Positions 2,516 to 33,379 of a DNA stretch of 33,379 nucleotides are shown here, piece after piece (within the stretch, counting starts at the first letter, position 1; every line of letters begins with the position of its first letter). This stretch comes from a virus: the IMG/VR virus record IMGVR_UViG_3300025141_000405, positions 1 through 33,379 of that record; one strand, written 5' to 3'. A program made the translations under genes and the position numbers. Below the pieces are notes generated by a model. It ran no database searches. It was not told the DNA's origin and saw only the letters and a list, made by a program, of their open reading frames with translations.

Positions 2516-5500
2516 TTATGGTCTGATATCATAATAAGTTTTTCTTCTATTCATTCTCTCAACCTCTTCTATGGTTGGCTCTTGAATAGGTGTGGTTATT
2601 CCCAGTGACTGAGCCCAGCTTGGGTCATACTTCATCTCAACCACATCACCTTCTGCTCGTCTCTCTTCAACTTCGCCAATTACCTTAGAGCCAATAGGCA
2701 GCCATTCTCTCAGCCCTCTCTCTTGCCCTGTCATCATCATTGAGAACTTCCACCTGTTCCATCTCTTTCTCGCAGCCTCATCATTCTTATCAATAGCCCA
2801 TTGTCTTCCTTGGAAGGTTGAGCCACCGGGATATTCTTTATTTTTTGGTACTGCCTTGACATTGAATTCATTCTTGAACCATTCCCAAGTTTCAGGTTGT
2901 TGTTGTAATCTAAAAAGTAACCAGCCATCAACGAGATTTGTTACTTGCCTATCTGGTCCTCTTCTGATATCTATGCCGAATGCTTGGGAAGCAGCGAGGT
3001 TTATCCAAGGATTTACATTCTCTCCTGCTGCTCTTACATAAGCTTTCATCAATTGATTGGTGGGGTCTGTAACAGGAATGTCGCCTGATGAGATAAGAAT
3101 ACTTTCTCCGTGTGCCTGCAAGATGTTTGCGAAATCTTGTGCTGCCTCCATCTGAGGAATAGGTGGGCTGTAATAACCTACCCTTTGATTAGTCTCCTTG
3201 TCTTGCTTGCTGTTAAAATACATTCTTGTCGCAGCCCATTCAGTCGGTGCTATGTGGGCTCTCCACTTACCTTGGATGTCATCTTCGGGTATGCCTCGTG
3301 TAGTAAGCATAATGTTTTTTAATCGGTTCGGGTTAGTCACAGCATTCTTAGCGAATGTCTTCCAGTTATTTTGACGGAAGGTGAGGAACCAAACCCAACG
3401 ATGAAGCCCCTTGATAGACTTGGAATAATCAAACAAACTTTCTCTTGATAGCTTGATGGCTTGTTCCAAAGGTAAGCCATTTTCTATTCCAGCAATCAAG
3501 ACACCGCTTCGGAAAGCATTATCAGTCTCATTAGCAAACTTACCCCAAATATTTGTTCCTTTCCAAGCGGTAATATTTCTCTGCATCCAAGCCCGGGCTG
3601 CTCTATGTTCGCTCTCTGGTAAAGTCTTTAAAAACCTTTGGAAGTCAATGTCTGTCTCTCTCATAAAGTCTTTGGCTACATTAGATGTAAGTTCGGCTGA
3701 TGCCTGTGAGCGAGACAAACCATTCGTTCTCATAATCTCTGCTAACATTTCAGTTGTGTAAGCTTTACCCGATGGTGCGACTGCTAGGATTTCTGTGGCT
3801 GATGCCTTGCCTGTGCCAACATAAATAGGATTGCTGAAAGCAACGACACGAGCACCTCTTGTTAAGTTTCCTGCTCCCTCTAAGCCCATCGAGCCGATAG
3901 TAGAATACATTATTGATGGAGCAGTTGAGAAGTTATTCATCATGTATCTAACAGCAGGAAGGGTGGTGCCGGCTAGCATGCCAGACTTCATAACATTATT
4001 TGTATAGCCAGCCCCAGTCCAAAATGAATTGAATAGCTGTTGCCCTAAATTTTGGTCGTAACCGCTGTAATAAAGTTTGGGTGTGCCTCGCTGCTCGCTA
4101 AACCATTCAAGCATTCGCAAGGCAGCATTTGTTTCCTCTGGTGTGAGAGGATTGATGTCATTCATTTGACGACTTTCTTTAAGTCTTATTCGTGTTAGGG
4201 TTTCATCAACACCTTGAATTCCTGTTCTCTCAGTCATTCTTCTTATTTGTGAGGTGATAGCAGCATCGATGCTTATTGCTTCTGCTATTTGCTGTGCCGC
4301 TCCCATTCCCGGCTTCGGCTGTGCTATGGCTGCTCGCAGTAATGCTTCTATTCTATTTGTCTGAGCCTTAGTAATTATTGTTGGGTTTAGACTTTCAGCA
4401 TAAGCTCTACCCGGTCGCCAAGCAGGTTTAAGCGAACCGGTTTCACCAAGCATCCACTTTAAAACTGCCTTCGAATGTGTAGGGTTAGCTTGAAGTTGTC
4501 TTACTATTTCTTGCGGAGACAATGAGCCACCCTCTATTGGAACATCAGACAGCTTGGCTATTTGTGCTTCATCCAAAGAAAGTAATTTTTTAACTGAGCT
4601 ATTCATCATTCTATCAAAAGCTTTTACTTCTCCTACCCCTTTCATATTCATCATATTATCGACAGCATCATCAACCCATAGCTTGTGTCGTAGTCTTCTT
4701 GTAAGCTCTAACAGGGCTTCTTCTATTGGCTCTCCACTTACCTTCTCAAACGGCATCCCGCCTCCGCCTTCACCACCGACATATCTTTTGCCGGGTGGGG
4801 GTAAGAGACTTGGGTCTCTTGGTGGCAGTGGTTCTGTTGCTCGCGGAGTAAAAGGAAGCGGTTTGGGAGCCGCAGCAGTGTGCGCTGCCTTTCCGATGTT
4901 GTAATTTTTATTAACAATAAGACCTGAGAAAGTGAACATGTCTTCATCAACAGCTTTGCTATTTAAGAAGCGATTAAGTTCATCTCGAAGTTGACCCTCA
5001 GCCATCTTCTTCGCACGCGAACGGGCGGCAATTGCTTTCATCATCTCTTCACCGCGCTCTGTCGTTAGCTCACTAATCTTTGCTTCCGCGGTTGAGATGG
5101 GACCTTCTTGAATGTTAGTGACACCTTGTTCATAGGGGTCTTTTGGAAACTTCTTATCTAAAAATTGTTTAACGACATCATCTTTATGTCTAAGGATTAA
5201 GTCGGGCTCAATAGTTATTCCCTCTGAATAAGCTTTATCTAGTCTAGCTTCTAATGCTGTTACGATTTCTTGGACCTCGCGCTCAGTTAGCCCAACATCT
5301 GCATACTTCTGCCATAAGTCGTATTCGCGGAGCTTCTTAGCAGTTGCATAAACACTGGTACCGACAGGCTCAGTCCATTCTGGCTCCATCTTCGTCCAGC
5401 TTTCGCTTGGTTTTTGTCCTTTAAACCCCTCAACCGGCGCGCTGCTCGGTGGGATGTCATCTGGATATAGAGGAACAACTTCTCCACCTTCCAGCGGGCG

Positions 5501-8500
5501 AGAGCCGCCTCCCCTAGGTGGCGGAGAACCTCCCATCCACTTCTGTACCTTATTTCTTAATAAGACATTCTCAAACCAAATAGTAGATTGGTCATCAATA
5601 ACTTTTCTATTTGGGAAGATTTGTGGATACTTTTTAGCAGCATTAGACATAACATCATTAATGATATTGGCTTTCTGTTGCTGTAAAGTTACGATGTGAA
5701 CCAGTTCAGTAGCATCTTTTTGACGATAGATGGGAGACATTGTATCAGCAGCTTCTATCAGTCGTTTAGTTACTGGGGAAACAGTTAGTGGGTCAATAGC
5801 CTGCTCTACCTTTGCTGCTTGTTGTAGTGTTTCAAAGATGTTATTTAGTTCTGCTTTCACACCAAAGACTTTCTCGACGCTCTGACCTTCCATCATACGA
5901 TGCCAGTCATCTAAAAGAATTAGGGCGCCAATATCATCACCATGAGAAATAGCCATTTTAATCTTTTCTAAGTGTGCTTTTCCTTTCTCCGATGAAAGGA
6001 TAACAGAAGTAAGCTGGTCAATATCTTCTGGGCTAATGTCTACTTTTGCCTTGCCTTTGGTGAGAGGCTTTCTTATTATTCTTTCGTGCCCTCCCAAGAT
6101 AAGGTTAGTGTATTCTCTTAGTAAAAGTTCAGGGTTAGAAGAGAAGGCATCCTGAACAATAAGTTTTGCTCCTGCTTGGGTAGGTGTTAAGCCCTCGGCA
6201 CGATATCTAGTTAGTGTAGAAGCATTATTCTCGGATAAAGCACCAAGTCTTGATGCAATATTCTCAACCACTTCTCCTGCTATTGGGTCTCCTGAAAGTT
6301 TAGAAGCAACACTATCATTAAATTTAGCCACAACTTGCTCTACCTTTTCTCCTATTAGATTATTTCTAATTGCTTTCGGAGCTAAGACACGGTTAGCATA
6401 CTGTGCTCTTTGTTTTGGGCTTGCTTTTCTAATGTCTGCTGCGACATCTTCAACAGTTCTAGAACCAAACTTTGCTGCCGCCAAGCTTTCTACTTTTGAT
6501 GACGCCATCTGGTTCCATTCAGCCAAGCCCAAGGCGAATTCATCAATGCCCTCATCGACACCTTTTTGAATATCACGCATCACCCTATTAAAATCTTTGC
6601 TACCAGAAACAAAGAGGTCTAATGTCTCATCTCCTGTTGGGGTTAAGCCACTAGTTCTGGGCTCCAAGTCATTAAGAATGCGAACCATCTGTTCCCGTGT
6701 TAAAACTATCATCAGCTGACCGTCTGGTCCGACTATGGTTCTCTCAGGATTAGCAGCTATTTCTTGCATAACCTTATGCATTTCGCTCTTATTAACGAGA
6801 GCAATTATTTCTCTCTGTTGAGCCTCATCAAGGAACCTACCTCCTATCTTTACCTGTTCCTGAATGCCTAGCCTACCTGTGGCTTGAAGCTCATTAACAA
6901 GGTCGCTAACGCCTTTACCAGCATAAGCTGATGCTATCTTCTCAGCGGCTAATGTGTCGTCAAGTTTCGGAATAATCGGTTTAGCATATGTTCCTGACAG
7001 GCTGGGCTGTACAGCGTTTCTTATTTGAACCGTCCAGTGATTAGATAAGCCATTTTCCAAGGCTTCGTCAGCCATTCTATTTAAGACATGCAGAAAAGAG
7101 GCTTCATTCTCTCCAAGAGCATCCCAGTTCTTTATGATATCATTTACTAAATCATCTGTGCCAGCCATCCCTCTTGCTAGGATGTCCGATTTTGTTTCAA
7201 GGGATAAAACATCATCCAATGAAGCAATCCACATAGCTTCCATTGCTTGTTTATTAAAAGTAGCATAGTCTATTGGGCTTTGTACTTTAAAGCCTCCTTG
7301 TTCAGCAACCTTTACAAAATCTTCCCAACTAACACCTTCCTGTGTCCGCGCAAAGAACTGCTCTGGTGTTTCTGTAACCCCTTCAACTATCTTTCTATTT
7401 TGGAGATAGTCTGTTTTAAAGTTGTAAACCTTTTTGGCGTTTTGAATATTGGTGGGTTGAGCAGCAAACTTCTGTGCTACCCTAGTAACTATGCTTATTT
7501 CCCCCTGCCCCTTAATCATCTTTTGAATTTTTGTGTCTTTTAAAATGTTTGTTACTAGTCGAGGCGGCATTAATAGGTCTCCCCACTCACCTTTCCACAT
7601 GGCATCCACTTGCGCGCCTGCCGCTTCTTCTGCTCTCGCCGCGGCAGCCGCTTCATCTGATGTTAGCTTTTTACCTAATTTCTTTTTAGCCCATCTCTTG
7701 GCTGTTTGCGCTGTTGCCTTAGTTGACTTAGTTCCCTCAATAACTACCCTACCGGGCAAGGTAGCGCCACCAACAACACGAGATGCTCCGCTTCTTGCTG
7801 CTGTTCCAATCGCCCGTGCACCCTCTGAGACAGCCGCTCTTGCCGCAACTTGTGTTGTGCCACCCAACGCGCTGGATACTTTAAAAGCAGTCGTTCCTTT
7901 TCTCGCCACGGACCCTATGGTTCCAAGAGCCCCCAAGTCAAGAGGAATGTAAAGGTCAATTGCTAAACCAATGGTGCCACCGACATATCCGCCGGCGGTT
8001 TGAAATGTTCCGGGAATGCCCTTCTTCTCATCAGCGCCTGTGTCTATTCCAAGCCATTCAGCCGCGCCATCTAGTTCAGCGCCAAATGCCGCTCCTGCAT
8101 CATGACCTCCACCCATCACACCCAAGCCACCTTCAATGCGTTCAGAGACAGCATCAGCCAAGTCTTTATCTGTAAACGCAGCTTCAACACCACCGACAAC
8201 AGCACTAATAGGCGCCTGAGCCAATCTGGCGGCGTACATCAAACCGCTTTCTGTAACACCTTGACCGGGTCGTCGTGTCTGTGTGCCCCATTCCAAGCTA
8301 TCCATGAAAGCAGTTGTGAAAGTGTTTGGAGCATCTTCAAACATTTCTTTTATTTCATCTTCTGACATTTGCCCATTGACAGCATCTTTGGCATTGCGCA
8401 CGGGAGGAATTTTACTGCCCATAATAAGTTTCATTCTATGTTCAGTTCTTTCTGGTGTCCAGTCTTCCGGGTCGACGCCTTCATATTCAAACTGTTCGTA

Positions 8501-9160
8501 AGCTATTTTTAATGCTTCTCTTTTAAAATCATTTTGAGCAAGATAATCTTCCTCAGTTAAAATCCTTCTAGGTTTTAGTGACTTCCAGATTTTACCCCAA
8601 TCAGTAGTAGGAATGCTATCTAAGTCAACGGCATTGTATATCATTTCAATAATGCCGGGAAGAACCCAAGGCATGCCTCCGGGCAATTGCATCATTGTGA
8701 AAGTATCACCCTCTTCCTCTTCTTGCTCTAATGCTTCTTCTGCTTTCTTCCAAGCATGGCTAGCCAAAGGGATATCACCGTGGACTGTGCGAGGTGTATC
8801 AGCAAACTGTCTTAGCTCATCTCTTCTTCTTCTAGCCTCGTTAATAAGTTCTTGTTTAATACCTAAGTCTAGACTGATGTCGTCATCTTCCCATTCAGCA
8901 TCAAGCCTAGCATCAATAGCTTGTTGCATCTCTGCGTTAAAAACCGGTGCCTTACGACTTTCCCAATTCTCAGCCCTTGCTTCTTGTACTTCTGCTTCTT
9001 CATCAATTTTAACCATAACCGGTTCAACGATGGCTGCCTGTTGCATCCTAGTTTCTGCTGGTGGATACATGTAGTTCCACTGCCCATCTGTCCAAACTTG
9101 AAGCTCGGCTGGTGTAAAACCAGCTGCGATAGCTTTATCCCATTGTGCTTGTGTAGCCAT
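2516..9160 (-). CDS. Giant internal-virion-type protein, 2214 aa
   Basis: This one gene takes up a fifth of the genome. It is mostly helical and alternates acidic and basic segments. A Gly/Ala-rich hydrophobic stretch lies near residues 385-470 and two Pro-rich linkers near 1210-1250 and 1430-1460. Near residue 1909 the motif LFDYSKS...(16 residues)...RQNNWKTF resembles the FDYS...PFYxFxRxN signature I associate with very large phage virion proteins. By position, after the tail genes and before the holin-like gene, it probably sits inside the capsid and is ejected with the DNA, like T7-type core proteins. I see no lysozyme or transglycosylase catalytic motif. The start ATG overlaps the previous stop as TAATG. 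The function is inferred from size, context and the one motif. Confidence 0.75.
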   Translation of the reverse strand: MATQAQWDKAIAAGFTPAELQVWTDGQWNYMYPPAETRMQQAAIVEPVMVKIDEEAEVQEARAENWESRKAPVFNAEMQQAIDARLDAEWEDDDISLDLGIKQELINEARRRRDELRQFADTPRTVHGDIPLASHAWKKAEEALEQEEEEGDTFTMMQLPGGMPWVLPGIIEMIYNAVDLDSIPTTDWGKIWKSLKPRRILTEEDYLAQNDFKREALKIAYEQFEYEGVDPEDWTPERTEHRMKLIMGSKIPPVRNAKDAVNGQMSEDEIKEMFEDAPNTFTTAFMDSLEWGTQTRRPGQGVTESGLMYAARLAQAPISAVVGGVEAAFTDKDLADAVSERIEGGLGVMGGGHDAGAAFGAELDGAAEWLGIDTGADEKKGIPGTFQTAGGYVGGTIGLAIDLYIPLDLGALGTIGSVARKGTTAFKVSSALGGTTQVAARAAVSEGARAIGTAARSGASRVVGGATLPGRVVIEGTKSTKATAQTAKRWAKKKLGKKLTSDEAAAAARAEEAAGAQVDAMWKGEWGDLLMPPRLVTNILKDTKIQKMIKGQGEISIVTRVAQKFAAQPTNIQNAKKVYNFKTDYLQNRKIVEGVTETPEQFFARTQEGVSWEDFVKVAEQGGFKVQSPIDYATFNKQAMEAMWIASLDDVLSLETKSDILARGMAGTDDLVNDIIKNWDALGENEASFLHVLNRMADEALENGLSNHWTVQIRNAVQPSLSGTYAKPIIPKLDDTLAAEKIASAYAGKGVSDLVNELQATGRLGIQEQVKIGGRFLDEAQQREIIALVNKSEMHKVMQEIAANPERTIVGPDGQLMIVLTREQMVRILNDLEPRTSGLTPTGDETLDLFVSGSKDFNRVMRDIQKGVDEGIDEFALGLAEWNQMASSKVESLAAAKFGSRTVEDVAADIRKASPKQRAQYANRVLAPKAIRNNLIGEKVEQVVAKFNDSVASKLSGDPIAGEVVENIASRLGALSENNASTLTRYRAEGLTPTQAGAKLIVQDAFSSNPELLLREYTNLILGGHERIIRKPLTKGKAKVDISPEDIDQLTSVILSSEKGKAHLEKIKMAISHGDDIGALILLDDWHRMMEGQSVEKVFGVKAELNNIFETLQQAAKVEQAIDPLTVSPVTKRLIEAADTMSPIYRQKDATELVHIVTLQQQKANIINDVMSNAAKKYPQIFPNRKVIDDQSTIWFENVLLRNKVQKWMGGSPPPRGGGSRPLEGGEVVPLYPDDIPPSSAPVEGFKGQKPSESWTKMEPEWTEPVGTSVYATAKKLREYDLWQKYADVGLTEREVQEIVTALEARLDKAYSEGITIEPDLILRHKDDVVKQFLDKKFPKDPYEQGVTNIQEGPISTAEAKISELTTERGEEMMKAIAARSRAKKMAEGQLRDELNRFLNSKAVDEDMFTFSGLIVNKNYNIGKAAHTAAAPKPLPFTPRATEPLPPRDPSLLPPPGKRYVGGEGGGGMPFEKVSGEPIEEALLELTRRLRHKLWVDDAVDNMMNMKGVGEVKAFDRMMNSSVKKLLSLDEAQIAKLSDVPIEGGSLSPQEIVRQLQANPTHSKAVLKWMLGETGSLKPAWRPGRAYAESLNPTIITKAQTNRIEALLRAAIAQPKPGMGAAQQIAEAISIDAAITSQIRRMTERTGIQGVDETLTRIRLKESRQMNDINPLTPEETNAALRMLEWFSEQRGTPKLYYSGYDQNLGQQLFNSFWTGAGYTNNVMKSGMLAGTTLPAVRYMMNNFSTAPSIMYSTIGSMGLEGAGNLTRGARVVAFSNPIYVGTGKASATEILAVAPSGKAYTTEMLAEIMRTNGLSRSQASAELTSNVAKDFMRETDIDFQRFLKTLPESEHRAARAWMQRNITAWKGTNIWGKFANETDNAFRSGVLIAGIENGLPLEQAIKLSRESLFDYSKSIKGLHRWVWFLTFRQNNWKTFAKNAVTNPNRLKNIMLTTRGIPEDDIQGKWRAHIAPTEWAATRMYFNSKQDKETNQRVGYYSPPIPQMEAAQDFANILQAHGESILISSGDIPVTDPTNQLMKAYVRAAGENVNPWINLAASQAFGIDIRRGPDRQVTNLVDGWLLFRLQQQPETWEWFKNEFNVKAVPKNKEYPGGSTFQGRQWAIDKNDEAARKRWNRWKFSMMMTGQERGLREWLPIGSKVIGEVEERRAEGDVVEMKYDPSWAQSLGITTPIQEPTIEEVERMNRRKTYYDIRP

Positions 9161-20211: not shown

Positions 20212-20530
20212 TGTCATTATCCTTTTGGGTTTTAGTTTTATCTTTCCATAAGGTTCTGCCGTTTCTATTCCCTTTCTTCCATTGATAGGGAATGCGTCCA
20301 TCATATTCCACCCCACAAGCTTCTGCTACAATCATCCTTTGTTTATTGGCGCATTGGACGCATAACTTGTTGTGTTTCTTTGCTGGAAAGTATTTCCAGC
20401 TAGTGTAGTGTAATAACTTCTTGCATAACGGACAGTTCCTGTACTTATCATAGACCCTCTTCCTGTATTTCCCTTTTGGGGGAGGTAGAGGGAGCGCATC
20501 GCAGATTTCCTTAGCTGTCTTCTTCGACAT
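20204..20530 (-). CDS. Small zinc-finger protein, 108 aa
   Basis: Two CxxC pairs (Cys33/Cys36 in NCPLCKK and Cys57/Cys60 in CVQCANK), 20 residues apart, form a probable zinc knuckle. The flanks are strongly basic (KGKYRKRVYDKYR, then KKGNRNGRTLWKDKTKTQK), suggesting nucleic-acid binding. It sits between a small membrane protein and the scaffold gene, overlapping both, so it is expressed with the head genes. A role in packaging, transcription control or endonuclease activity cannot be told; no His-Asn-His motif is present. Function unknown. Confidence 0.65.
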   Translation of the reverse strand: MSKKTAKEICDALPLPPPKGKYRKRVYDKYRNCPLCKKLLHYTSWKYFPAKKHNKLCVQCANKQRMIVAEACGVEYDGRIPYQWKKGNRNGRTLWKDKTKTQKDNDND

Positions 20531-20696
20531 CTTTAAGTTTTTCCACGATTTCTACTGGTGATGTCTCTATGGACACATCGCCAGTTGTGTAATCTACTGC
20601 ACATTCTCCAAACAAAGTTGAAATAACGACAGCAGTTCCCACAATAGTAATGCTGATGTTATATTTATCAGCAAAGTCTTTTATTTTCGTAAACAT
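20511..20696 (-). CDS. Small single-span membrane protein, 61 aa
   Basis: Residues about 13-30 (ISITIVGTAVVISTLFG) are hydrophobic. A basic N-terminus (MFTKIKDFADKY) and an acidic tail (EIVEKLKDVEEDS) suggest the N-terminus inside. AGGAGA precedes the ATG at good spacing. It lies with the Flp-like pilin among head genes. No family is recognised. A second holin, a superinfection factor or a virion membrane-contact peptide are all possible. Confidence 0.6.
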   Translation of the reverse strand: MFTKIKDFADKYNISITIVGTAVVISTLFGECAVDYTTGDVSIETSPVEIVEKLKDVEEDS

Positions 20697-21230: not shown

Positions 21231-21476
21231 CTAATAATCGTGGGGGAACCATGAAGGCGACCCACCTGTATCTGCGTTAAACGCGGTTTGATTTGCATGG
21301 ACGCTGTAACATTCTGGGTCAAAGCCCATTGCGATACAGTCGCCCAAACTGTAAAATAGTGAGGAGAACATGTCGCCAAAGTAATAAGTACAAACTGCAA
21401 TAGCGGCGCCAAGTGTCGCTGTTATTACACCATATTCCATAGCGGTTGCTCCCTCTTCATCTTTAATAAAATTCAT
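21231..21476 (-). CDS. Flp-type (type IVb) pilin-like protein, 81 aa
   Basis: The N-terminus FIKDEEGATAMEYGVITATL has the Flp/Fap prepilin signature GxxxxEY: a short charged leader, Gly9 at the cleavage site, Glu14 and Tyr15 at +5/+6, then a ~20-residue hydrophobic helix. In bacteria such prepilins are cut after the Gly by a TadV/CpaA-type peptidase and assembled by the Tad machinery. The tail after the helix is longer than in typical Flp pilins and holds Cys47 and Cys57, with Cys29 in or near the helix. AGGAT precedes the ATG by a normal distance, and it is packed tightly between head genes, so it is a regular phage gene. Its role in the phage is unknown. Confidence 0.82.
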   Translation of the reverse strand: MNFIKDEEGATAMEYGVITATLGAAIAVCTYYFGDMFSSLFYSLGDCIAMGFDPECYSVHANQTAFNADTGGSPSWFPHDY

Positions 21477-21479
21477 TTT

Positions 21480-21944
21480 TTAATATCCTGTTGTTGTTGT
21501 ATCGTTAAGACAAGCTTTCGCATCAAAGGTTTCAGTAACAGCCTTTATTTTATCTCCACCAAACTTCTTGATGTTATCTTGGTAAGTCTCGTTGACCTTA
21601 TCCTGTGCTACTACCTTTTCTCTTCTATCATCTGTAAAATCTTTAATAAAGTGAGGCGCGAAGTCGCTTTCCCTCACTAGACCTCTGCTCTCGGCAATCT
21701 TATCAGCTTCCCAAGAACTATGCACACGGCATCCAAGCCCTCTATCAAAGTATCCATTAACACCCCCACCTGTTCCTGCTTGCCCAGCCCACATCCGGTT
21801 CATGTCGGCATGAATAGCTATTTGTTTATTTGAAATGTCTCCACAAAATTCACATTCAATATTCTGTGGAATTTCAAAGTTAACTTTAAAAAGTTCTTCT
21901 GTAACTTTTTGACATGAGACACATTTAAAATCAAATAAAGGCAT
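21480..21944 (-). CDS. FmdB-like zinc-ribbon protein, 154 aa
   Basis: The start MPLFDFKCVSC with a second pair CEFC (Cys8/Cys11, Cys31/Cys34) is the FmdB-type putative regulatory zinc ribbon, frequent in phage head clusters. After the ribbon the chain continues about 115 residues, with a Gly-rich stretch (MWAGQAGTGGGVNGYF) and a helical basic/acidic part (FIKDFTDDRREKVVAQDK), which I do not recognise. The function of phage FmdB-like proteins is not established. Its start overlaps the stop of a second zinc-ribbon gene (TAATG), so the two are co-translated right behind the portal. Confidence 0.7.
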   Translation of the reverse strand: MPLFDFKCVSCQKVTEELFKVNFEIPQNIECEFCGDISNKQIAIHADMNRMWAGQAGTGGGVNGYFDRGLGCRVHSSWEADKIAESRGLVRESDFAPHFIKDFTDDRREKVVAQDKVNETYQDNIKKFGGDKIKAVTETFDAKACLNDTTTTGY

Positions 21945-22135
21945 TATTTTCTCTGGTACCCATCTTTCTCCCAGCCTCCTCCACGGAGCCCGAAGTCAGT
22001 TCCAAACATTTTTAAAGCAGATGCTTTACAATGTGGACATTCTATTTCTCTGGGGATATCCCCCATGATATCATAAAAACCTTGTGTTCTTTTCTCGCAT
22101 TTTATGCATTTGAATGTGTGTAAAACTTTTCCCAT
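21944..22135 (-). CDS. Short FmdB-like zinc-ribbon protein, 63 aa
   Basis: Cys10/Cys13 (CIKC) and Cys33/Cys36 (CPHC) form a zinc ribbon with the same spacing as the downstream neighbour, including the (D/N)IP(R/Q)xIEC lead-in to the second pair (DIPREIEC here, EIPQNIEC next door). The two are therefore probably paralogues from a duplication, this one ending just after the ribbon. The start overlaps the portal stop as TAATG. The role is unknown; binding to nucleic acid or to head proteins is possible. Confidence 0.7.
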   Translation of the reverse strand: MGKVLHTFKCIKCEKRTQGFYDIMGDIPREIECPHCKASALKMFGTDFGLRGGGWEKDGYQRK

Positions 22136-30055: not shown

Positions 30056-30238
30056 ATGAACTTTTTAGCGACACCACCGAGCCGGGACCCGGACCGGGAC
30101 CCCGGAAAGCGAGCCGAAAAAACTTTGCTTTGGGGGAAAATAAAATGGCTTTTGGGTTTGCTCGTGACTATTTACTTTACAACAGACAGAAAACAACACC
30201 TGTTTTCTACGAACTATTCTGGGAGGAATAACAGATGA
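30056..30238 (+). CDS. First gene of rightward operon, 60-aa membrane-type peptide
   Basis: AAGGGAG precedes the ATG, and the ORF follows the promoter closely. Its TGA overlaps the next ATG in the same ATGA style as the following genes, so it is probably real despite its size. The first 28 residues are Pro/Arg/Asp-rich (TPPSRDPDRDPGKRAEK), coming from a GC-rich repeat shared with the next gene. Residues 31-43 (WLLGLLVTIYFT) are a short hydrophobic span, and the tail is basic. Function unknown; an early host-takeover or membrane peptide is possible. Confidence 0.55.
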   Translation: MNFLATPPSRDPDRDPGKRAEKTLLWGKIKWLLGLLVTIYFTTDRKQHLFSTNYSGRNNR

Positions 30239-30522
30239 GAGACAACAACGAAATATTAGTGGGAGACTTGGTAAAGATGAGGGCAATAACCCCCGAGCCC
30301 GGGACCCCGGAAAGGCTGACTTTTCTGGTGAAAGGCTACTTGGCGGAAGACGACGAACTGGTTGATGCTTGGATGATGACGGCTTTATCAACAGGCGACA
30401 CCTTCCGTGTCTTCCGTCAGTTTTTACCTGACGATGGAAACCATTATCGCTTGTCGCCTACTTGGGGCGACAGAGGATACAACGAGGGCTACGACGATGC
30501 TTGGGTGAGGGTGGAACTATGA
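30235..30522 (+). CDS. Tandem paralogue 1 of 5 (GDLVK small protein), 95 aa
   Basis: Founding-type member of a five-gene family found only here in the window. Shared layout: start MRDNNE, then GDLVKM, then a strand ending FLV, a middle ALSTGDTFRV segment and the C-terminus DDAWVRVEL. The pattern suggests a small beta-barrel (SH3-like) fold, which is inference. At DNA level it shares exact blocks of 23 and 26 bases with member 2 (30259-30281 and 30427-30452), so the duplication is recent. The ATG overlaps the previous stop and the TGA overlaps the next ATG (ATGA), suggesting coupled translation. Function unknown. Confidence 0.78.
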   Translation: MRDNNEILVGDLVKMRAITPEPGTPERLTFLVKGYLAEDDELVDAWMMTALSTGDTFRVFRQFLPDDGNHYRLSPTWGDRGYNEGYDDAWVRVEL

Positions 30523-30836
30523 GAGACAACAACGAAATGAAAACTTTTTCTTCGCCTCGCATATCAGCGGCGAGAGACAACAACGAAATAAAAGTGGGAG
30601 ACTTGGTAAAGATGAGACAAGAATACAGACACCCCCCCGAGCCCGGCACCCCGAAGTCGCTGACTTTTCTGGTGACGAGGCACGAGCCTGAAAGCAGCGG
30701 AAGCATACAAGTTTGGGAGATGACGGCTTTATCAACAGATGAAACCTTCCGTGTTATTCGTTTGATGGTGCCTGACGATGGAAACCATTATCGCTTCTTA
30801 GGCTACGACGACTGCTGGATGGAGGTGGAACTATGA
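30519..30836 (+). CDS. Tandem paralogue 2 of 5, 105 aa
   Basis: Closest relative of member 1: GDLVKM, PEPGTP, LTFLV, MTALST.ETFRV and VPDDGNHYR are shared, ending in DDCWMEVEL. The N-terminus carries an in-frame duplication: GAGAGACAACAACGAAAT occurs at 30521-30538 and again at 30572-30589, so RDNNE appears twice, 17 codons apart. This looks like an insertion or slippage event between the start and the GDLVK core. The ATG at 30519 is chosen because of the ATGA overlap; an upstream in-frame start at 30462 would run deep into member 1. Function unknown. Confidence 0.78.
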   Translation: MRDNNEMKTFSSPRISAARDNNEIKVGDLVKMRQEYRHPPEPGTPKSLTFLVTRHEPESSGSIQVWEMTALSTDETFRVIRLMVPDDGNHYRFLGYDDCWMEVEL

Positions 30837-31126
30837 GAAACGACAACGAAACGAAAACGGGAAAGTTGCTGAGGATACAGCGAGATGCGGCATTTTCATC
30901 AAGCCCGAACCTTCACGATGAAAACGGGTGGGAGCAAAAACTATTCTTGGTGTGTGATGAGCCCGCCAACCGAACCTACTACGAAGGGCATACTTCTGGC
31001 TGGTGGAACCTGATGGAGGTGGCGACTGGGATAAAGGTGGAAGGCTGCGGGTTGGCTGATGGATGGTGGTTGTTGAGAGAAGAAGACGACGAGGAAAACA
31101 ACTTTTGGATGGAGGTGGAACTATGA
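30833..31126 (+). CDS. Tandem paralogue 3 of 5, 97 aa
   Basis: More diverged: MRNDNE start, TGKLLRI in place of GDLVKM, KLFLV, a Trp-rich middle (HTSGWWNLMEVATGI) and the family ending NNFWMEVEL. The end repeats the DNA TGGATGGAGGTGGAACTATG of member 2, which supplies the ribosome site and start of the next gene. ATGA overlaps on both sides. Acidic overall. No enzyme motif; function unknown. Confidence 0.75.
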   Translation: MRNDNETKTGKLLRIQRDAAFSSSPNLHDENGWEQKLFLVCDEPANRTYYEGHTSGWWNLMEVATGIKVEGCGLADGWWLLREEDDEENNFWMEVEL

Positions 31127-31527
31127 GAAACGACTACGAGTTTTACAACAGCATTAGCAGCGAGAGCGAGGAGCCGATGAAACCCGGCGACTTGATAAAG
31201 TTGGAGGCATATGCCCGTGTGCCTTCTGGATGGTATGAGCCCGTTGAGGAACTGAAAAAAACCTCGTTGGCTGGCTACACGGATGATGGGAAGCAGGGGG
31301 TTATGGAACTGAAAACGAAGATAGTTTTACTGGTGAAGAAATACCAACCCGACAACAGGAGATGGGAGCGAACCTACTGGGCTGAGGATATTGCGACGGG
31401 AGAAGAATGGATGTTGCAGCCGAAGGAAAGTCAAGCATTTTCATACACGGGAAATAAAACTACGGAAGAGGGAAGCATCAAAACTGAATGGAACCCCGCT
31501 GACTATTGGATGAGGGTGAGGCTATGA
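31123..31527 (+). CDS. Tandem paralogue 4 of 5, 134 aa
   Basis: Start MRNDYE, then MKPGDLIKLEAYAR, KIVLLVKKY, AEDIATGEEWML and the end ADYWMRVRL keep the family layout. It is about 35 residues longer than members 1 and 3 because of extra loops (SGWYEPVEELKKTSLAGYTD and QAFSYTGNKTTEEGS). The ATG at 31123 overlaps the previous stop; an earlier in-frame ATG at 31063 would lie inside member 3. Function unknown. Confidence 0.75.
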   Translation: MRNDYEFYNSISSESEEPMKPGDLIKLEAYARVPSGWYEPVEELKKTSLAGYTDDGKQGVMELKTKIVLLVKKYQPDNRRWERTYWAEDIATGEEWMLQPKESQAFSYTGNKTTEEGSIKTEWNPADYWMRVRL

Positions 31528-32791: not shown

Positions 32792-33379
32792 ATGCCTAAT
32801 TGGTGTGAAAATAATATGACGATAGAGGGAAGTGAGGAAGCGATAGATGGGATAATGAAACTTATTCTTGATGCGAACCCTGACTGCTATATCAACGAAG
32901 AGACAGGATACTTGATGATGAAATGGGAATGCAGAGGTGAGTGGAGAGATGAGGTGGCATCGCCACCTGATAAATTCTTTGAGGCTCTTTACCCTGAACC
33001 TGATGGCTATGAAAGTAAAGATGGCTGGGCGAGAGACAAGTGGGGAACCAAGTGGGATGTGGGTGATGGAACTTATATCCAACGGGTTGATGGTGGCATC
33101 TATGCTTGCTTCCAAACTGCTTGGAGCCCGCCCGATGGTGTTTATCAACACCTGATAGAGAACCACGAGGTGTTTATTTCCGCTCAATATGAAGAGCCCG
33201 GCATGCAATTCTGCGGGGAATGGAGAGGCGAACACGACGAGGAGGGAGGCTGCTGTGGGGGCTATGATGAATATGACTGGAACCTGACGAGCCGAACTGA
33301 ACTACGAGGTGAGATGCCTGACGACTACCATTACTTGGGGGATGAAGTGGCGGGCAACCTATTCTACTTTGTCAATCCG
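32792..33379 (+). CDS. Api92/YubB-like protein, N-terminal part (continues at window start)
   Basis: The N-terminus MPNWCENNMTIEGSEEAIDG is the typical opening of the Api92/YubB ferredoxin-like fold family found in phages and plasmids. The middle Trp/Pro-rich part (WARDKWGTKWDV, then FQTAWSPPDGVYQHL) and ISAQYEEPGMQFCGEW also fit that family. Its molecular function is not established. A perfect AGGAGGG stands 8 bases before the ATG, the strongest ribosome site in the rightward block. The frame is open to the last base and continues at the window start, total about 269 aa, longer than the core domain. A Gly/Cys stretch (EEGGCCGGYDEYDW) at the contig join differs by one Cys codon between the two ends. 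Confidence 0.85.
   Translation, partial: MPNWCENNMTIEGSEEAIDGIMKLILDANPDCYINEETGYLMMKWECRGEWRDEVASPPDKFFEALYPEPDGYESKDGWARDKWGTKWDVGDGTYIQRVDGGIYACFQTAWSPPDGVYQHLIENHEVFISAQYEEPGMQFCGEWRGEHDEEGGCCGGYDEYDWNLTSRTELRGEMPDDYHYLGDEVAGNLFYFVNP
33254..33379 (+). repeat. Terminal direct repeat, right copy
   Basis: Identical to 8-133. Left of the repeat, GGGAGG occurs at both ends, but the right copy has CTGC where the left has T, an in-frame 3-base difference. Confidence 0.93.

Follow-up and report, generated by a model that had tools for sequence, protein, structure and literature searches.

The stretch of DNA analysed here (the window) is a 33,379-nt virus record from IMG/VR (IMGVR_UViG_3300025141_000405), and the genome looks complete given its 126-nt terminal repeat (positions 8-133 = 33254-33379). 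It encodes a podovirus-type major capsid protein (MCP; NF033394), a terminase, a portal, RusA, two methyltransferases and a sigma-70 region-4 protein. The genes are arranged in the order p63, TadE, RusA, methyltransferases, sigma-like protein, TerL, portal and zinc ribbons, followed by Flp, an acidic protein, tm61, a scaffold-like protein and the capsid. The structural genes, Flp and the TadE-like gene all lie on one strand, and the position of the two pilin-like genes suggests that they are expressed late. Elsewhere in the window, a 2214-aa protein (2516-9160, minus strand) without any Pfam or PHROGs match may have a role inside the virion or in ejection, and a series of small ORFs at 30235-31139 (plus strand) that have repeated segments in common, as diverged tandem copies, is apparently a duplicated gene family. 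A search with an anti-phage defence library returned nothing convincing.

The Flp-type gene (Table 1) encodes a protein whose short leader is charged; Gly9, Glu14 and Tyr15 are all present, and a hydrophobic helix is followed by a tail of ~35 residues with two cysteines. Its product reads MNFIKDEE followed by GATAMEYGVITATLGAAIAVCTYYFGDMFSSLFYSLGDCIAMGFDPECYSVHANQTAFNADTGGSPSWFPHDY, the second part starting with Gly9, after which the cut is predicted. A sequence-only reading of this DNA had proposed an 81-aa protein with a class III prepilin signature, encoded in phage orientation with zinc-ribbon genes before it, an acidic head gene after it and a normal ribosome site; each of these points is borne out, with AGGA found 9 nt 5' of the ATG. 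The profile search that it had suggested gave a match to Flp_Fap (PF04964; E=3.1e-7, 30.5 bits, profile positions 1-25 of 46), slightly below the curated cut-off of 32.2 bits. The likeness to bacterial Flp pilins had been described as exact for the signature and helix; the Cys-containing C-terminal tail is left uncovered by the match. A motif scan for ORFs combining GxxxxE with a hydrophobic helix identified two in the window, compared with a mean of 0.14 and a maximum of 1 in 100 third-order Markov simulations. No relative of the window Flp was detected in an 84,980-species genome scan, and a search of solved structures by sequence yielded nothing useful. AlphaFold models were of low confidence (pLDDT 53 and 49) and are unfit for interpretation or fold search.

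Table 1. Features of the pilin-like genes and associated small genes in the window.
Feature	Positions	Strand	Basis
Flp-type prepilin gene, 81 aa	21231..21476	(-)	Pfam Flp_Fap match, podovirus homologues, purifying selection
Prepilin leader MNFIKDEEG, predicted cleavage after Gly9	21450..21476	(-)	Sequence; Gly invariant in all phage homologues
Hydrophobic pilin helix	21378..21449	(-)	Sequence, Pfam; low-confidence AlphaFold helix 7-33
Glu(+5) codon, inside pilin helix	21435-21437	(-)	Sequence
Tyr(+6) codon, inside pilin helix	21432-21434	(-)	Sequence
C-terminal tail with Cys47/Cys56	21234..21341	(-)	Alignments of podovirus homologues
TadE-like pseudopilin gene, 133 aa	28621..29022	(-)	Pfam TadE PF07811
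tm61, 61-aa membrane protein	20511..20696	(-)	Restricted to Flp-bearing phages or near-identical siblings; alignment
63-aa zinc-ribbon protein	21944..22135	(-)	Largely co-distributed with Flp and tm61

The second ORF recovered by the motif scan is the TadE-like ORF, which the earlier reading had overlooked. Its N-terminus reads MMITKNEQG followed by SYTVEFSLLLP, and it matches Pfam TadE (PF07811) at E=2.1e-7 and 31.4 bits (33.3 bits in a whole-record scan), above the curated cut-off of 22.9 bits. RusA lies directly downstream in the same direction. The protein shares with bacterial TadE-like pseudopilins a profile match over the cut-off, a leader ending in Gly and Glu(+5), but the phage version stands outside a tad operon and differs in its C-terminal part. 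In bacteria, the Tad prepilin peptidase processes TadE as well as Flp.

We aligned the capsid protein against IMG/VR and obtained 278 encoded relatives, from which 80 loci were kept; these relatives of the window virus come from environmental virus datasets. Flp was also present in two further contigs of the window virus (L002 and L003), and homologues were identified at 59% in the virus represented by L004, L005 and L048 and at 62% in L053. The L005 homologue matches Pfam Flp_Fap above the cut-off (32.8 bits), and the L053 homologue has no Pfam match. Gly(-1) and Glu(+5) are invariant in an alignment of the window, L004/L005, L053 and two Flps from the large phages described below (L123 and L125); for the podoviruses this invariance is that of three independent sequences only, and Gly and Glu alone are weak evidence. 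The conservation of Gly9 and Glu14 that had been anticipated for other phages is thus found in divergent relatives, but Tyr15 does not follow it: Tyr(+6) is kept in the window and T4-like Flps and is replaced by Val in L004/L005 and by Thr in L053. The podovirus homologues strongly conserve the tail motif DC[IV]xMGF[DE]PECYS[VI]H. Between the three podovirus lineages, Flp presents pN values of 0.24-0.32, well under pS values of 0.71-0.88, which indicates purifying selection. Flp/Fap type IVb (Tad) major pilins such as Caulobacter PilA have in common with these proteins the short leader ending in Gly, Glu(+5), usually Tyr(+6) and one hydrophobic helix, whereas the podovirus versions carry the additional ~35-aa tail with cysteines, two of them are without Tyr(+6), and the phages are without Tad machinery.

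Homologues had been expected at the same position in other phages, but Flp occupies three different places: between Zn154 and the acidic head gene in the window, between two tail-region genes in L005, and upstream of the sigma-like gene and TerL in L053. Most relatives with the same head genes are without Flp, and the Flp-bearing viruses are split in the capsid tree. An AU test on concatenated TerL, portal and MCP yielded p=0.032 against a single Flp clade, a borderline value obtained with long branches. A single clade of Flp phages was therefore not supported by the tree or the test, and the distribution of the gene fits gain, loss or movement. The distribution of tm61 tracks that of Flp, with a position that shifts between phages too, and it is possible that tm61 is a partner of the pilin mimic. 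The 63-aa zinc-ribbon protein was also found in L006, which does not span the Flp sites. These patterns bear on the idea that a host Flp gene was acquired by chance without benefit, or that it entered the contig as contamination. Temperate prophages do carry orphan Flp genes (PMC12482185, PMC12429752), but chance acquisition is hard to reconcile with a gene found in L002, L003 and divergent phages, at three positions and with pN well under pS. Contamination is ruled out by the L002/L003 copies, the divergent phages and the apparently complete genome of the window virus. This explanation is largely refuted and we consider it the least probable of those weighed here.

We also scanned IMG/VR for the canonical signature GATAIEYG, which returned 35 stretches. 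Three of them lie in large phage contigs (L123, L124 and L125, of 183, 94 and 77 kb), and the 183-kb contig carries a T4-type gp23 capsid gene (E=3e-62) and a PhoH gene. The Flps of the large contigs are 51-52 aa long, which is the normal minimal length, with a mutual identity of 75% and the full GATAIEY motif. In protein scans, Pfam Flp_Fap matched L123 at 32.4 bits and L125 at 36.1 bits (cut-off 32.2). Whole-record scans of the three contigs gave 31-35 bits for Flp and 45-51 bits for TadE (51.5 in G001/G002 and 44.8 in G003; cut-off 22.9). A similar small ORF precedes TadE in both large-phage sub-lineages, and TadE is therefore a stable gene there. The TadE matches of the whole-record scan were these three contigs and the window; TadE was absent from 38 of 38 podovirus relatives without Flp and from 30 of 30 other Flp-signature virus records, and the contigs of the two Flp-bearing podovirus relatives (L005-type and L053-type) end short of the TadE region. 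The Flp and TadE pair is common to two unrelated phage groups.

Orphan Flp genes were observed beside a tRNA-Met gene in five provirus-like IMG/VR records of 22-54 kb (L015, L017, L028, L030 and L034). These genes are mostly near terminase genes, a NusG-like ORF is found nearby in several of the records, and the proteins appear sphingomonad-like by eye. None of the five records presented TadE, an A24 peptidase or T2SSE.

Two genes were used to define a complete Tad system, the A24 prepilin peptidase (PF01478) and the T2SSE assembly ATPase (PF00437), and neither was detected in the window or the large-phage records (G000-G003). The tyrosine integrase by which we defined temperate prophages (PF00589, the sole integrase type searched) was absent from G000-G003 and G005. 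Among the 50,697 phage records of INPHARED, no Flp was found with the window or consensus query, the T4-like query produced chance-level matches only, and there was no TadE match. The same consensus query recovered 134 plasmid records, which indicates that the search works for canonical Flps. A host search, in which genome-collection contigs were scanned with the Flp and MCP alignments, found nothing. Flp-family pilins have been reported in the Vibrio harveyi prophages phi345/phiGANI1709 (PMC12482185) and in Sinorhizobium phiLM21-like prophages (PMC12429752). The earlier statement that Flp pilins have no settled role in phages is right as far as role is concerned, but it missed that orphan prophage genes had already been tabulated in these studies. 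Those prophages share with the window virus a phage-borne Flp-family pilin; they differ in being temperate, and their Flp is annotated as a possible virulence trait or listed as a table entry only. Orphan Flp in temperate prophages is therefore on record, whereas we found no description of Flp with TadE in phages in the open-licence literature, nor of the pair in phages without an integrase.

The recurrence of the pair without its machine in two unrelated groups is the strongest argument that these proteins act on the host Tad system. Three roles had been put forward from the sequence: a decoy that blocks or jams host Tad pili, a membrane-contact peptide of the virion and a small lysis protein. 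The first is favoured, though not proven, because TadE, a second substrate of TadV-type peptidases, co-occurs with Flp in two unrelated lineages. A small membrane-contact or ejection peptide that came to resemble Flp by convergence or domestication would fit the podovirus gene's location within the structural region, flanked by head genes or by tail genes, or a short way upstream of TerL. However, its position varies among relatives, most of those with the same head genes are without it, and such a role leaves unexplained both the prepilin-type leader and the pairing with TadE; we regard it as improbable. A holin or pinholin is less probable again. Its small size, single hydrophobic helix and structural-gene surroundings are those of a small late lysis protein, but the prepilin leader, the Glu(+5) within the helix, the Pfam Flp match and the co-occurrence with TadE are not holin features. 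Moreover, the 97-aa single-helix protein encoded at 2210-2503 is a more conventional candidate, and the gene is missing from most relatives that share these head genes.

In Caulobacter, the hydrogen-bond network at the core of the Tad pilus filament is made by Glu(+5) and Tyr(+6), both of which are required for pilus assembly and dispensable for pilin processing (PMC11067988). Since Glu(+5) is needed for assembly rather than processing, its retention in the phage proteins fits contact with pilin subunits and not mere cleavage. Likewise, a subunit through which the filament does not extend in the usual way would be consistent with the loss of Tyr(+6) in two lineages; this loss, together with the added tail, suggests subunits that may cap or stall filaments. 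Deletion of the Caulobacter minor pilin genes cpaJ/cpaK results in an absence of pili and in phiCbK resistance, and the predicted location of minor pilins is the tip of the pilus (PMC12607857).

The best explanation, which we hold at about even chances, is that the phages make Tad substrates that join or jam host Tad pili. The phage would imitate two subunits of the host Tad pilus, with a Flp-type pilin whose gene lies in the head cluster and a TadE-type minor pilin encoded farther upstream on the same strand. Both would insert in the host inner membrane, where a host prepilin peptidase of the TadV/CpaA type would cut them after Gly. The N-terminal helix and Glu(+5) would then allow entry into a putative host Tad assembly complex, and the unusual C-terminal ends, together with the loss of Tyr(+6) in two relatives, may stall or cap the filament or change it. 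Produced in surplus, phage TadE could compete with host minor pilins at the pilus tip. The benefit would be superinfection exclusion, or progeny kept from re-adsorbing to the pili of dying cells; superinfection exclusion is the most likely purpose.

It is possible, although we lean against it, that two unrelated and apparently lytic lineages, the ~33-kb podovirus family and the T4-like phages, independently acquired Flp and TadE as poisoned substrates that would turn the host peptidase and assembly machinery against the Tad pilus during infection, capping it or shutting it down, a form of superinfection exclusion by pilin mimicry. Against this model, Tyr(+6) is retained in the window Flp and the T4-like Flps have the usual minimal length, which makes normal assembly of these proteins possible. 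Alternatively, phage pilins might be built into functional host Tad pili and alter adhesion, retraction or the release of infected cells, for example for dispersal or progeny encounter. This remains a serious rival, if an unlikely one: the T4-like Flps have the full motif and a normal length, the Tyr15 kept in the window makes assembly possible, and the predicted tip location of minor pilins (PMC12607857) is compatible with it. Conversely, Tyr(+6), which assembly requires, is missing in two podovirus relatives, and a lytic phage would profit less directly.

Phage factors acting on type IV-like pili are already known. The Pf phage protein PfsE binds PilC and thereby suppresses type IV pili (PMC8764522); like the proteins proposed here, PfsE of Pf4 is a small phage protein directed against a pilus of the type IV family, which it disables, thereby excluding superinfection. 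PfsE differs in that it binds the inner-membrane protein PilC without imitating a pilin, and in that it targets Pseudomonas type IV pili, not Tad; the route suggested by our results is pilin mimicry. If true, mimicry of substrates by a pilin together with its matching minor pilin would set this strategy apart from that of PfsE.

These results suggest that phages with Flp and TadE meddle with host pili, and the targeting of Tad by the two proteins is well supported, as known here from the phage genes alone. Tad pili are widespread bacterial surface appendages and serve as receptors for known phages, such as Caulobacter phiCbK and phiCb5. If true, pilin mimicry points to Tad-bearing hosts for these uncultured viruses, and the phage pilins would constitute small genetically encoded probes of how Tad pilus growth starts and stops.
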